A stretch of 64,000 bases of DNA, from assembly GCA_025965195.1 (NCBI GenBank), contig JAOPXK010000024.1, forward strand, positions 1-64,000, given 5' to 3'. The stretch comes from Marmoricola sp. (lineage in GTDB: Bacteria > Actinomycetota > Actinomycetes > Propionibacteriales > Nocardioidaceae). Position numbers and translations under genes: made by a program. Shown piece by piece: positions 58,354 to 62,790 of the stretch. The stretch's first letter is position 1, and each line of letters opens with the position of its first letter. A model generated the notes under the pieces. That model ran no database searches and was not told the DNA's origin. It saw only the letters and a program-made list of their open reading frames with translations.

Positions 58354-59130
58354 TCAAGTCTGGGGTGAATTCTTGTTGTGGCCCATGACACAGAAGGCAA
58401 TACCAGCGGGATCGCGTAGCGCGCCCAGCCGACCGTACGGCGTGTCATCGACCGGCATCAGCTGCGTGGCTCCGGCTGCGACCGCCTGAGCGACCGTAGC
58501 GTCTGTGTCTGCCACCTGTACATAGAACTGCCAGGTCGACGGGCGATCGCCGAGAAAACCCGCCGCATCCATGATTCCGGCAAGGGCGGCCTCGTTCTCG
58601 CCGAGCGTCGTGTACCGGAACTCCGGAGTGTCGGCCACCGTCGTGGTGTCCCAGTCGAATACGGCTACGTAGAAGGGAACGACGGTCTCGTAATTCTTGG
58701 TGAGGTTCTCGAACCAGGACGGAGCGCCGTTCTCCGCGCGTGCCGAGATGCCCTGGTGCACACCCGGTTGCCAGACGCCGAGCATGGCGCCGCCCGGGTC
58801 GACGACGAAGGCCTGGGTGCCGAGGTCAGCCACCTCCATCGGCTCGAAGACGACCTTGCCACCGTTGGCCCTCGCCTTCTCGAGGGTCTCCTTGATGTCA
58901 GCGGACTCGAGGTAGACCTGCCAGGCGTTGGTTCCCATGCTGCCGTCGTTCTTCATGCAACCGGCGATCGGCCCGCCGTTGTGCTCGAAGATGAAGTAGC
59001 CGCCGAACCGTGGGTCGGCCTCCTGCGCGGTCCAGCCGAACAGGTCACCGTAGAACTTTGCGGCTGCGTCGGTGTCGGGGGTGAAGAGGTCGATCCAGAT
59101 CGGGGCGCCGGGGGTGTTGGAGAGGCTCAT
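58354..59130 (-). CDS. VOC (glyoxalase/bleomycin-resistance fold) protein
   Basis: 258 residues from ATG 59130 (AGGAG site). Two vicinal-oxygen-chelate repeats: PIWIDLFTPDTDAAAKFYGDLFGW and WFENLTKNYETVVPFYVAVFDWD; each ends in a strand of the FVVDPGGAMLGVWQ or ALRDPAGIAFCVM type. Substrate unknown; relatives include CFP-30B-like hydroxylases. Confidence 0.85.
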   Translation of the reverse strand: MSLSNTPGAPIWIDLFTPDTDAAAKFYGDLFGWTAQEADPRFGGYFIFEHNGGPIAGCMKNDGSMGTNAWQVYLESADIKETLEKARANGGKVVFEPMEVADLGTQAFVVDPGGAMLGVWQPGVHQGISARAENGAPSWFENLTKNYETVVPFYVAVFDWDTTTVADTPEFRYTTLGENEAALAGIMDAAGFLGDRPSTWQFYVQVADTDATVAQAVAAGATQLMPVDDTPYGRLGALRDPAGIAFCVMGHNKNSPQT

Positions 59131-59211: not shown

Positions 59212-60075
59212 CTAGCTCGCCTTCTTTTTGGCAGCCTTCTTCGCGGCGGGTTTTCTCGCTGCCGACTTCTTCGCGGGCTTCGCTGCCGCGGGCTCCTCGC
59301 CGCGTGCGGTCTTGGCGGCGTCGACGCTGCGCTGGAGTGCGGCGAGCAGATCGACCACCTCTCCCGAGGACTTCTTCGCCTGCGGCGTCTTCTTGACCTC
59401 GCCGCCCTCGATCTTGGCCTTGACGAGTGCCTCGACGGCCTCGCGGTAGTCGTCCTCGAACTCGTCGGCGGCGAAGTCACCTGCCAGGGTCTCCACGAGC
59501 ATGTTGGCCATCTTCACCTCGGCCGGCTTCGCGTCGTCGGAGCCCACCGTGGCGAAGTCGGGGGACCGGATCTCGTCGGGCCACATCATCGTCTGCATCA
59601 CGATCACGTTGTCGCGGACGCGAAGGACGGCCAGCGACATCCGGGTGCGGATCGAGACCGTCACCAGTGCCATCCGGTCGGCATCGACGAGCGCCTGGCG
59701 CAACAGGGCGTAGGGCTTGGCGCCGGTCTTCTCGGGCTCGAGGTAGTAGGACTTCTCCAGCAGCATCGGGTCGATCTGGTCGCTCGGCACGAACTTCTCG
59801 ACGCTGATCTCCCGGCTGCTGCTTGCCGGCAGGTCGGCCAGGTCGTTGTCGTCGAGGATGACCATCTCGCCGTCCTCGGTCTCGTAGCCCTTGGCGATGT
59901 CGGCGTAGGACACCTCCTCGCCGTCCAGGCTGCAGACACGTTGGTACTTGATCCGGCCGCCGTCCTTGGCATGCACCTGACGGAACGAGATGTCCTTGCT
60001 CTCGGTCGCGGAATACAGCTTGACGGGCACGCTGACGAGCCCGAAGGAGACGGCTCCCTTCCAGATGGCGCGCAT
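59212..60075 (-). CDS. ku: Ku protein of non-homologous end joining
   Basis: 287 residues. Opening MRAIWKGAVSFGLVSVPVKLYSATE is the bacterial Ku signature; VSIRTRMSLAVLRVRDNVIVMQTMMWPDEIR is the core ring. The last 35 residues are Lys/Ala-rich repeats, like the DNA-binding tail of actinobacterial Ku. It binds DNA ends as a homodimer and recruits LigD. Divergent from the LigD genes by 77 bases. Confidence 0.94.
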   Translation of the reverse strand: MRAIWKGAVSFGLVSVPVKLYSATESKDISFRQVHAKDGGRIKYQRVCSLDGEEVSYADIAKGYETEDGEMVILDDNDLADLPASSSREISVEKFVPSDQIDPMLLEKSYYLEPEKTGAKPYALLRQALVDADRMALVTVSIRTRMSLAVLRVRDNVIVMQTMMWPDEIRSPDFATVGSDDAKPAEVKMANMLVETLAGDFAADEFEDDYREAVEALVKAKIEGGEVKKTPQAKKSSGEVVDLLAALQRSVDAAKTARGEEPAAAKPAKKSAARKPAAKKAAKKKAS

Positions 60076-60152
60076 GCGGATTCCCTTCGCCGGTGACCTG
60101 TCTCAACTCAAGACTCGTGAAACCAACGGTACTCATCGGACAGGATGAGGTC

Positions 60153-61097
60153 ATGCGTCCGATGCTGGCCACCCGCGGCGACCATGTGCCCGTTGGTGAC
60201 GCCTGGACCCACGAGGTCAAGTGGGACGGGATGCGCGTGCTCGTGGACGTCTCGGTCGATGGAGCACAGTCGGGAACTGCCCGGCTGTTCTCCCGCAACG
60301 AGAACGACGTGACGATCTCCTTTCCCGAGCTCGCGGCCCTGGCTTCCCTCGGCAGGGACTTCCTGCTCGACGGCGAGGTGGTCGCGCTCGGGACCGGAGT
60401 GCCCTCGTTCGGGGCGCTCGCCGACCGGATGCATGTGCGTGACGCCCGCAAGGCTGCCCGGCTTGCCGAGTCGAACCCGGTCACGCTGGTCGTCTTCGAT
60501 CTGCTCCGCCTCGACGGGGTCGACCTGTTGAGGCAGCCGTTGCGGGAACGACGCTCGTTGCTGGTCGGGCTGGGGCTCGATGACGTCGCCTGGCAGGTGC
60601 CTCCGACGTACGACGACGGGCAGATGCTCCTCCACGCCGCGGAACAACAGGGGCTCGAGGGCATCGTGAGCAAGAAGTGGTCCTCGACGTACCGCCCGGA
60701 CGTGCGGACCCGGGACTGGCTGAAGTTCCCGATCCGACCGACCGGGTCCTATGTCGTCGGCGGCTTCCGTCGCGAGACGGGGAGCGAGCATCGTCTCGGC
60801 GCCGTCCTCGTCGGCCAGCCGAGCCCGCAAGGACTGTTGTACCGGGGCCGGGTCGGGAGTGGCATTGCCGGCAAGGCGGGCCAACGGCTCGGGGAGCTGC
60901 TCCTGCCGACGGTGAGAGCGAGCAGTCCGTTCGTCGACGAGGTGCCGCGGCTGGACCAGGACGGCACGGTGTGGGTCGAACCGGTGCTCGTCGTGGACGT
61001 GCAGTACCTCCAGCTCAGCAGGGACGGGCGGCTGCGGCAGCCGGCGTACCGTGGCATTCGCAGTGACCTGACGCCAAGCGATCTCGGAGGCGAATGA
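60153..61097 (+). CDS. ATP-dependent DNA ligase, LigD ligase-type (separate gene)
   Basis: 314 residues from ATG 60153. Adenylation motif KWDGMR (Lys near residue 26), EVVALGTGVPSFGALADRMH, EGIVSKKWSSTYRPDVRTRDWLKFP, and an OB-fold C-terminus. It corresponds to the ligase part of LigD; the polymerase part lies at 61819 as another gene. No 3'-phosphoesterase domain was found. ATGA overlap with the next gene. Confidence 0.9.
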   Translation: MRPMLATRGDHVPVGDAWTHEVKWDGMRVLVDVSVDGAQSGTARLFSRNENDVTISFPELAALASLGRDFLLDGEVVALGTGVPSFGALADRMHVRDARKAARLAESNPVTLVVFDLLRLDGVDLLRQPLRERRSLLVGLGLDDVAWQVPPTYDDGQMLLHAAEQQGLEGIVSKKWSSTYRPDVRTRDWLKFPIRPTGSYVVGGFRRETGSEHRLGAVLVGQPSPQGLLYRGRVGSGIAGKAGQRLGELLLPTVRASSPFVDEVPRLDQDGTVWVEPVLVVDVQYLQLSRDGRLRQPAYRGIRSDLTPSDLGGE

Positions 61098-61822
61098 TGC
61101 TGGGTCGACCGATGCTCGAGCGCCTCGGATGTCTCTTGGTCGCCGGCGTCCTGGCGACGTTGCTGCCGGGTCTTGGCACCCCTGCGTCGGCAGCCACTCA
61201 CCACGTCCGCCTCGACGGGGTGACGGCCACTCTCGCGTCCGGCACGCATCAGGTGATCACGGTGAACCACACCGGCGGTGATCGGGCACGGGTGACGTTG
61301 TGGGTCTGGCATGCGGGTCGCGGCTGGCGCCGGGTGGCCCAGAGCACCGACGGCCGGATCGGGTACGGCGGACTGGTGGCCGGCTGGAAGCGGAAACAGG
61401 GCAGTGGGGCCACCCCGCTCGGCACGTTCAGGCTGATCTCGTCGTTCGGCACGCACCGGGCACACGCGTCCTGGAAGCTGCCCTACCGGCGGATCGCTCC
61501 TGGGGACTACTGGGTCGAGGACAACGGCTCGGCGTTCTACAACCGCTACCGCAACAAGGCCGAGGGTGGTTTCCGTTGGTGGCTGTCGACGAGTGACGTC
61601 AACAACTCCGAGCTGCTGAGCAGCTTTCCGGGACAGTACGAGTACTCGATCGTGACGAGCTTCAACCTCAACCAGGTCCGGCACCGCGGTGCCGGGATCT
61701 TCCTGCACGTCAACGGCTCGGGCGCCACCGCCGGCTGTGTGTCCGCACCCCGCTGGTTCCTCCAGCGCACGATGGCCGTGCTCAACCCGCAGTGGCGTCC
61801 AGCGATCGCCGTGGGGCGATGA
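61094..61822 (+). CDS. secreted L,D-transpeptidase (YkuD-like)
   Basis: 242 residues. Signal peptide ends at ASAATHH. C-terminal catalytic block FLHVNGSGATAGCVSAP holds the His and Cys of the L,D-transpeptidase fold; GATPLGTFRLISSFG is the upstream conserved segment. Such enzymes crosslink or edit peptidoglycan. ATGA overlaps with the ligase gene before and the polymerase gene after place it inside the LigD operon. Confidence 0.85.
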   Translation: MMLGRPMLERLGCLLVAGVLATLLPGLGTPASAATHHVRLDGVTATLASGTHQVITVNHTGGDRARVTLWVWHAGRGWRRVAQSTDGRIGYGGLVAGWKRKQGSGATPLGTFRLISSFGTHRAHASWKLPYRRIAPGDYWVEDNGSAFYNRYRNKAEGGFRWWLSTSDVNNSELLSSFPGQYEYSIVTSFNLNQVRHRGAGIFLHVNGSGATAGCVSAPRWFLQRTMAVLNPQWRPAIAVGR

Positions 61823-62790
61823 CGGTGGCAGCCCCGGGGAAGGAGGAGCGCACCGAGGTCAGGGTCGAGGTCGACGGGCGTGCCCTCACGATCGTCAACC
61901 TCGAGAAAGTGATGTATCCGCGCACCGGCACCACCAAGGGCGAGGTTCTCGACTACTACGCGCGCATCGCCCCGGTGCTGCTCCCGCACCTGGCTGATCG
62001 GGCGGTCACCCGGATCCGTTGGCCGCACGGCACCGGAGACAAGTCCTTCTTCGAGAAGAACGCGCCCGCGGGAGCGCCGTCCTGGTTGCGGGTCGTGACA
62101 GTCCCGACCACCGGTTCACGCACGAAGTCCGGTGAAGAGGGCGAGCTCCGGTTCCCGATCATCGATTCGCTCGCTGCCCTTACCTACCTGGTGAATCTCG
62201 CCTCCCTCGAATTGCACGTGCATCAGTGGACGGTCACCAGGAAGGGCAAGACCCGCAACCCGAACCGACTGGTGATCGATCTCGACCCGGGCGATCCGGC
62301 AGGGCTGATGGAGTGCGCGCAGGTCGCGCTGCTGGTCAAGGAGCGGCTCGCCAAGGACGGGTTGAACTGTGTGCCGGTGACCAGCGGGTCGAAGGGCCTG
62401 CATCTGTACGCCGGCCTCCCTCCGACCGGCTCAGGACAACCGATCGGAAGGACCTCTGACGAGGTCCGGGACTACGCCAGGGAGATCGCCGAGGAGCTCG
62501 AGAAGGAACACCCGAAGCTGGTCGTCTCCCAGATGACCAAGACCAGGCGCGGTGGCAAGGTCTTCCTCGACTGGTCGCAGAACACCGGCGCGAAGACGAC
62601 CATCTCGCCGTACAGCCTGCGCGGGCGGGACTCTCCGATGGTTGCGGCTCCGCGCACCTGGGACGAGATCGAGGTCGGCGCCGAGGATCCGCTGGGGCTC
62701 GAACAGCTGAGGTTCAACGAGGTGCTGGACCGCGTCGACGAGTACGGCGACCTGTTGGGCCTCGGTGGCGCACCGGGCACAGATCAGTAG
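61819..62790 (+). CDS. LigD-type polymerase/primase for end joining (separate gene)
   Basis: 323 residues, archaeo-eukaryotic primase fold. VNLEKVMYPRTGTTKGEVLDYYARIAPVLLPHL, LELHVHQW and catalytic LVIDLDPG; SGSKGLHLYAGL; RGGKVFLDWSQNTGAKTTISPYSLRGR. It fills gaps with ribo- or deoxynucleotides during end joining. The 3' end overlaps the convergent sugar transferase by seven bases. Confidence 0.93.
   Translation: MTVAAPGKEERTEVRVEVDGRALTIVNLEKVMYPRTGTTKGEVLDYYARIAPVLLPHLADRAVTRIRWPHGTGDKSFFEKNAPAGAPSWLRVVTVPTTGSRTKSGEEGELRFPIIDSLAALTYLVNLASLELHVHQWTVTRKGKTRNPNRLVIDLDPGDPAGLMECAQVALLVKERLAKDGLNCVPVTSGSKGLHLYAGLPPTGSGQPIGRTSDEVRDYAREIAEELEKEHPKLVVSQMTKTRRGGKVFLDWSQNTGAKTTISPYSLRGRDSPMVAAPRTWDEIEVGAEDPLGLEQLRFNEVLDRVDEYGDLLGLGGAPGTDQ

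Follow-up and report, generated by a model that had tools for sequence, protein, structure and literature searches.

A YkuD-family gene inside the split LigD operon of Nocardioidaceae, a probable passenger

Organisation of the locus

The window, that is, the whole stretch of 64,000 nucleotides that was analysed, belongs to a genome of 3.97 Mb in 200 contigs, whose relatives, as judged by the end-joining locus, belong to Nocardioides, Marmoricola and further genera of Nocardioidaceae. The locus includes, on the minus strand, the gene of the bacterial end-joining protein Ku (ku, 59212-60075; PF02735, 1.4e-51; TIGR02772, 320.7 bits, cut-off 150) and, on the plus strand, three tightly packed genes: lig (60153-61097), the ligase half of a split LigD (PF01068 and PF04679; TIGR02779, 230.7 bits, cut-off 227.75); ldt (61094-61822), a YkuD-family gene of 242 codons assigned by PF03734, alignment, AlphaFold2 modelling and fold matches; and pol (61819-62790), the primase-polymerase half of the split LigD (PF21686, 2.8e-79; TIGR02778, 245.3 bits, cut-off 214.7). 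The start of ldt lies on the stop of lig in an ATGA (61094-61097, plus strand) and the start of pol on the stop of ldt in another (61819-61822, plus strand), both being overlaps of 4 bases. These coordinates confirm the original prediction in that lig and pol are two genes with ldt between them and an ATGA on either side. As to the ku-ligD operon that it described, lig, ldt and pol do share one strand and ku is adjacent to them, but ku is divergent from lig, so that the operon is lig-ldt-pol and ku lies beside rather than within it. The divergent gap between ku and lig measures 77 bases (60076-60152) when the ATG at 60153 is taken as the lig start, a GTG at 60093 being an alternative possible start.

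The genes needed for split LigD end-joining, namely ku and the genes of a LigD-type ligase and a LigD-type polymerase, are all found by Pfam and NCBIfam models. On the LigD-type model PRK09632 (781 positions), pol matches positions 4-288 and lig positions 479-777, the latter at 245 bits versus 129 bits for PRK08224, which we take to be the LigC model. As had been predicted, a phosphoesterase domain is missing: PF13298 has no match in the whole source genome, so this is not a conventional three-domain LigD. The locus is flanked by a two-domain glyoxalase-like gene (58354-59130), directly downstream of ku and on the same strand, and by a sugar transferase gene (PF02397, 62784-63995, minus strand), which is convergent with pol and overlaps it by 7 bases.

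In the window, a possible start at a 4-base overlap was found in 7 of the 35 same-strand neighbour pairs, lig-ldt and ldt-pol included, a count that rests on crude gene calls. The double ATGA overlap alone is unremarkable; it is the kept gene order that is noteworthy.

The YkuD-family protein

The ldt product matches PF03734 (YkuD) at 27.5 bits, against a cut-off of 23.4, and has no NCBIfam match at E 0.001. Its N-terminus, inspected by eye, is signal-peptide-like. The AlphaFold2 model of the protein has a pLDDT of 90.2, and its fold is matched by H. pylori Csd6 (Z 15.4), C. jejuni Pgp2 (Z 15.0) and B. subtilis YkuD (Z 13.2), as well as by mycobacterial L,D-transpeptidases at Z values of about 10.5-12.5. 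Of 997 aligned chains, 64 gave a Z of at least 8, and the best 50 of these 64 are YkuD-type enzymes by entry title or by the identity of the entry. Foldseek by itself found no match to the model at E 0.001, its best three (E 0.017-0.13) being L,D-transpeptidases. With the ldt profile, all four matches in solved structures up to E 1 were fimbrial adhesins (E 0.03-0.05), which were dismissed as noise. On the basis of the model, the ldt product is predicted to have the YkuD fold.

The active site has been compared in an alignment of 38 ldt sequences, 31 of them from the slot between lig and pol, one from beside ku and six from elsewhere. His205, Thr212, Gly214 and Cys215 are invariant in all 38, and position 213 is occupied by Ala in 37 and by Ser in one. 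The canonical active-site motif of YkuD L,D-transpeptidases is [S/T]HGC, from which the ldt product departs: its active site reads TAGC, and that of the four other YkuD genes of the source genome SHGC. Furthermore, the closest folds, Csd6 and Pgp2, are cell-shape proteins that we take to be carboxypeptidases, so the fold does not settle which reaction ldt carries out. The YkuD family is described as including transpeptidases, carboxypeptidases and endopeptidases (PMC12729407), and the name "L,D-transpeptidase" thus denotes a fold and not a reaction. Of the cell-wall crosslinking enzyme originally proposed, the predicted YkuD fold and the active-site His and Cys stand, but crosslinking is unproven because TAGC, a non-canonical site, takes the place of SHGC.

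In eight hand-picked pairs of related genomes, dN/dS of ldt ranges from 0.17 to 0.54, and it exceeds the values of lig and of pol in each of the eight. The ldt gene is under purifying selection, weaker than that on lig or pol.

Distribution and history of the gene order

A set of 197 Nocardioidaceae genomes was surveyed, in which matches were found to ku in 189 (1e-30), to pol in 185 (1e-60), to lig in 161 (1e-40) and to ldt in 58 (E 0.001). The comparison of loci was entered by 114 of the 161 genomes for lig (E 1.6e-87 or better, the other listed matches being at most 46% identical), by 114 of the 185 for pol (E 2.5e-118 or better) and by 56 of the 58 for ldt, G015 and G045, with split matches, being excluded. 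Close relatives of lig and pol adjoin each other in 113 genomes; outside these pairs, G116 has lig without a listed pol and G110 has pol without lig. Among the 113, ldt lies between the two genes in 27, close by in one and elsewhere in 10 (four close and six distant matches), and the remaining 75 have no ldt match at E 0.001. The three genes are not kept or lost together, as 86 of the 113 genomes have lig and pol without ldt in between. When only close ldt homologues in genomes with the lig-pol pair are considered (32), the slot accounts for 27 and a place beside ku for one (G028); conversely, 27 of the 29 slots with more than 180 bases inside contain ldt. There is little reason to see ldt as a replacement of the phosphoesterase, as in most relatives lig adjoins pol with nothing in between.

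Moreover, the order lig-ldt-pol was found in 9 of 13 loci from named records, four of which are already among the 27, giving 32 different records with this order. One Nocardioides strain that has it is N. pocheonensis (L040). The arrangement is thus not confined to one strain, as the 27 of 113 genomes and the five further named records demonstrate. An ldt homologue (1e-15 or better) also occurs in 14 genomes from other families of the same order, 10 of which have a pol match; none of the 14 has the order lig-ldt-pol, and the nearest ldt homologue to pol lies about 74 kb from it.

A possible ldt start overlaps the lig stop by 4 bases in 20 of the 27 genomes, and by 4 or 1 bases in 22; for the pol start and the ldt stop, the corresponding numbers are 11 and 15, and both 4-base overlaps occur jointly in 8 of the 27. 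Of the 86 genomes whose slot lacks ldt, 54 have a possible pol start that overlaps lig by 4 bases or by 1. The gap between ku and lig is shorter than 260 bases in 82 genomes, the source genome being one of them; in the 60 of these gaps that were viewed, no clear shared promoter element was seen by eye, and many have, also by eye, a loose CAGGATG-like stretch immediately 5' of lig.

Other genes are also found at the locus. In G081 (L103, 1347-2015), the slot between lig and pol is occupied by a 222-codon thioredoxin-rhodanese gene with an ATGA join to lig. In 20 regions chosen for a ku-lig gap longer than about 700 bases (L177-L196, thus not a random sample), from which 10 proteins were scanned, the contents recur among relatives: some gaps hold a MacAB-like exporter with DUF5666 (about 5.7 kb), others genes of an FMO monooxygenase, an SBF bile-acid-symporter and an epimerase (about 3.3 kb), and further ones a DAO-type oxidoreductase (about 1.3 kb); an RTX-repeat protein gene is also among the contents. 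The ku-lig-pol locus accepts unrelated genes. In G006 (L066), a gap of about 180 bases between lig and pol has 19-base inverted arms, like a small non-coding transposon.

Outside the slot, ldt is still at the locus in a single case, G028, where lig overlaps pol directly and some 550 bases separate the 3' end of ku from ldt, which points towards ku. Between ku and this ldt there is a frame of 161 codons with no Pfam match (L044, 5464-5949). Twenty neighbourhoods of ldt outside the slot were compared by sequence, and 20 proteins from six of them were scanned against Pfam. One family, FMN-oxidoreductase-like in G049, is common to 8 of the 20, and in G107 ldt adjoins a zinc-finger anti-sigma-like protein; apart from this protein and the ku of G028, no repair or dormancy theme stood out in this comparison and scan. 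The neighbourhood survey suggested with the original prediction has yielded a recurring order in 27 of 113 genomes, but also copies of ldt that sit among other genes when out of the slot.

On the tree of lig and pol (113 genomes), the presence of ldt requires 21 changes, at least 15 of which are forced by well-supported branches. With midpoint rooting, a single gain of ldt requires 27 losses; one gain for each main branch requires instead 18 and 6. Distances between the in-locus ldt genes follow those of their lig and pol neighbours (n = 27, r = 0.63, permutation p = 1e-4), and the order lig-ldt-pol is preserved over two genera in which the mean identity of ldt is about 60%. Monophyly of the ldt genes in or near the locus was neither rejected nor demonstrated (p = 0.145), in a test where L037, with ldt between lig and pol, was counted as in and three far rows were dropped.

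Empty sites have been searched for remains of ldt. Compared with its sister G092 (L110), G075 (L099) has, 3' of the lig stop, a 28-base run of the ldt start with 2 mismatches, in which the start codon and a few codons of ldt continue in frame into pol; this junction is the clearest trace of an ldt deletion. A scan for remnants covered 50 of the 83 empty sites, those with at least 24 bases. Among its ten best sites for each end of ldt, bases resembling the end of ldt numbered 17 in G188, 13 in G196 and 11 in G163, which 0 of 30 shuffles matched, and in G089 there are 10 bases resembling the ldt start, a better result than 60 of 60 shuffles. A pattern scan for the ldt tail, from which G081, G028 and G006 were excluded for their inserts or odd joins, was matched by one of the 83 empty sites: G098 has V-G-R-stop with an ATGA, a pattern also obtained in 20 of 500 shuffled sets. 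Apart from G075, the scraps are short and supportive, the shorter of them being near the chance yield of 50 tests. In most lineages the changes would be losses of ldt and not regains; in some, the gene may have been gained through recombination.

Explanations and known systems

The ldt gene is probably an old, co-expressed and dispensable passenger in the split LigD operon. At an early stage in the evolution of two Nocardioidaceae genera, a YkuD-family gene would have been inserted at the junction of lig and pol in a phosphoesterase-free split LigD operon. The three genes would share transcription, ldt would be translated in tight packing with lig and pol, and its product would be exported to act on peptidoglycan and presumably lacks a role in repair; the gene would then have been inherited along with its neighbours and repeatedly deleted while the end-joining genes remained. 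Co-expression is likely in view of an order that extends beyond one strain, of the divergence of ldt together with the repair genes and of the purifying selection. The many disappearances of ldt suggest a passenger that is co-expressed rather than a partner in repair. Against a mere passenger, 28 of the 32 close homologues lie in or beside the locus, which is more loyal than a free passenger need be; that ldt has stayed in one place in two genera, that it is under purifying selection and that G028 has it beside ku speak for some value of its being at the locus, most simply co-expression.

The same loyalty, including that of the G028 gene beside ku, also fits a reading in which cells entering stationary phase, becoming dormant or drying out would make end-joining and wall-remodelling enzymes from one transcript, so as to deal with broken chromosomes and a damaged wall at once; tight packing with a likely single transcript and the purifying selection on ldt agree with it as well. 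Nevertheless, we consider it rather unlikely, given that 75 of the 113 genomes with the lig-pol pair have no ldt match, that ldt outside the slot sits among other genes, that unrelated passengers occupy the same locus and that the 60 ku-lig gaps viewed showed no clear common element by eye. The joint use in dormancy or desiccation first put forward has not been borne out, as ldt comes and goes in 21 changes, at least 15 of them forced, and lig and pol stay intact. The exported, non-canonical YkuD enzyme could be a working member of the operon: in cells that are not growing or are drying out, it would remodel the wall as Ku, Lig and Pol repair chromosome breaks, and lineages abandoning that lifestyle would have lost ldt alone; this we regard as unlikely. 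It is conceivable that dormancy or desiccation gives these genes a common role, with linkage and persistence as the only evidence in its favour.

It is very unlikely that ldt is a chance neighbour with its own promoter inside lig, no co-expression and a meaningless position. The 4-base overlaps common in the window (7 of 35 pairs) and the readiness of the locus to take unrelated genes would agree with this, but the order is kept in two genera where the identity of ldt averages about 60%, and possible ldt starts overlap the lig stop by 4 or 1 bases in 22 of the 27 genomes. Finally, the ldt frame might serve as a translational spacer tuning the ratio of lig to pol, its product being secondary; in favour are the overlaps of 4 or 1 bases that lig and pol allow in 54 of the 86 genomes without ldt between them, and the re-fusion of the ldt start to pol in G075. 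The spacer reading is highly improbable, since all 38 aligned sequences have His205 and Cys215 and dN/dS is well below 1, which shows that the ldt protein itself matters.

If ldt is a passenger, the gene of an exported enzyme has been riding a repair operon over two genera only to be deleted again, a warning against inferring function from gene neighbourhood. If the link is functional, the repair of double-strand breaks and the remodelling of the envelope would be tied together in non-growing bacteria, a connection made directly testable by the existence of related strains that have or lack ldt. Among the titles and abstract openings listed in literature searches (8-15 at most per list, few of them from subscription journals), none connected Ku or LigD with an L,D-transpeptidase. 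As far as has been searched, a YkuD gene embedded in a split LigD operon is an undescribed variant.

In the Bacillus-type LigD, the ligase is followed by the polymerase in one protein. The locus resembles it in having the ligase ahead of the polymerase and no phosphoesterase, and differs from it in dividing the two activities between two genes, which flank the gene of an unrelated and probably exported protein. The ldt product shares its predicted fold and its active-site His and Cys with the YkuD family (PF03734), and departs from the four other YkuD genes of the source genome in having TAGC for SHGC; atypical YkuD-like enzymes are already known, such as LdtGo2 of Gluconobacter, as reported in PMC10727944. 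Bacterial NHEJ systems that lack domains or have them separate are outlined as over-represented in Actinobacteria (PMC7719229), and the system of S. ambofaciens is outlined as comprising kuA-polK and ligC-polR, with no gene for a nuclease domain (PMC5124664). Like such nonconventional NHEJ systems, the present one has Ku, separate ligase and primase-polymerase genes and no phosphoesterase; unlike them, as far as they are outlined in PMC7719229 and PMC5124664, its lig and pol share a single packed operon that encloses a YkuD gene.
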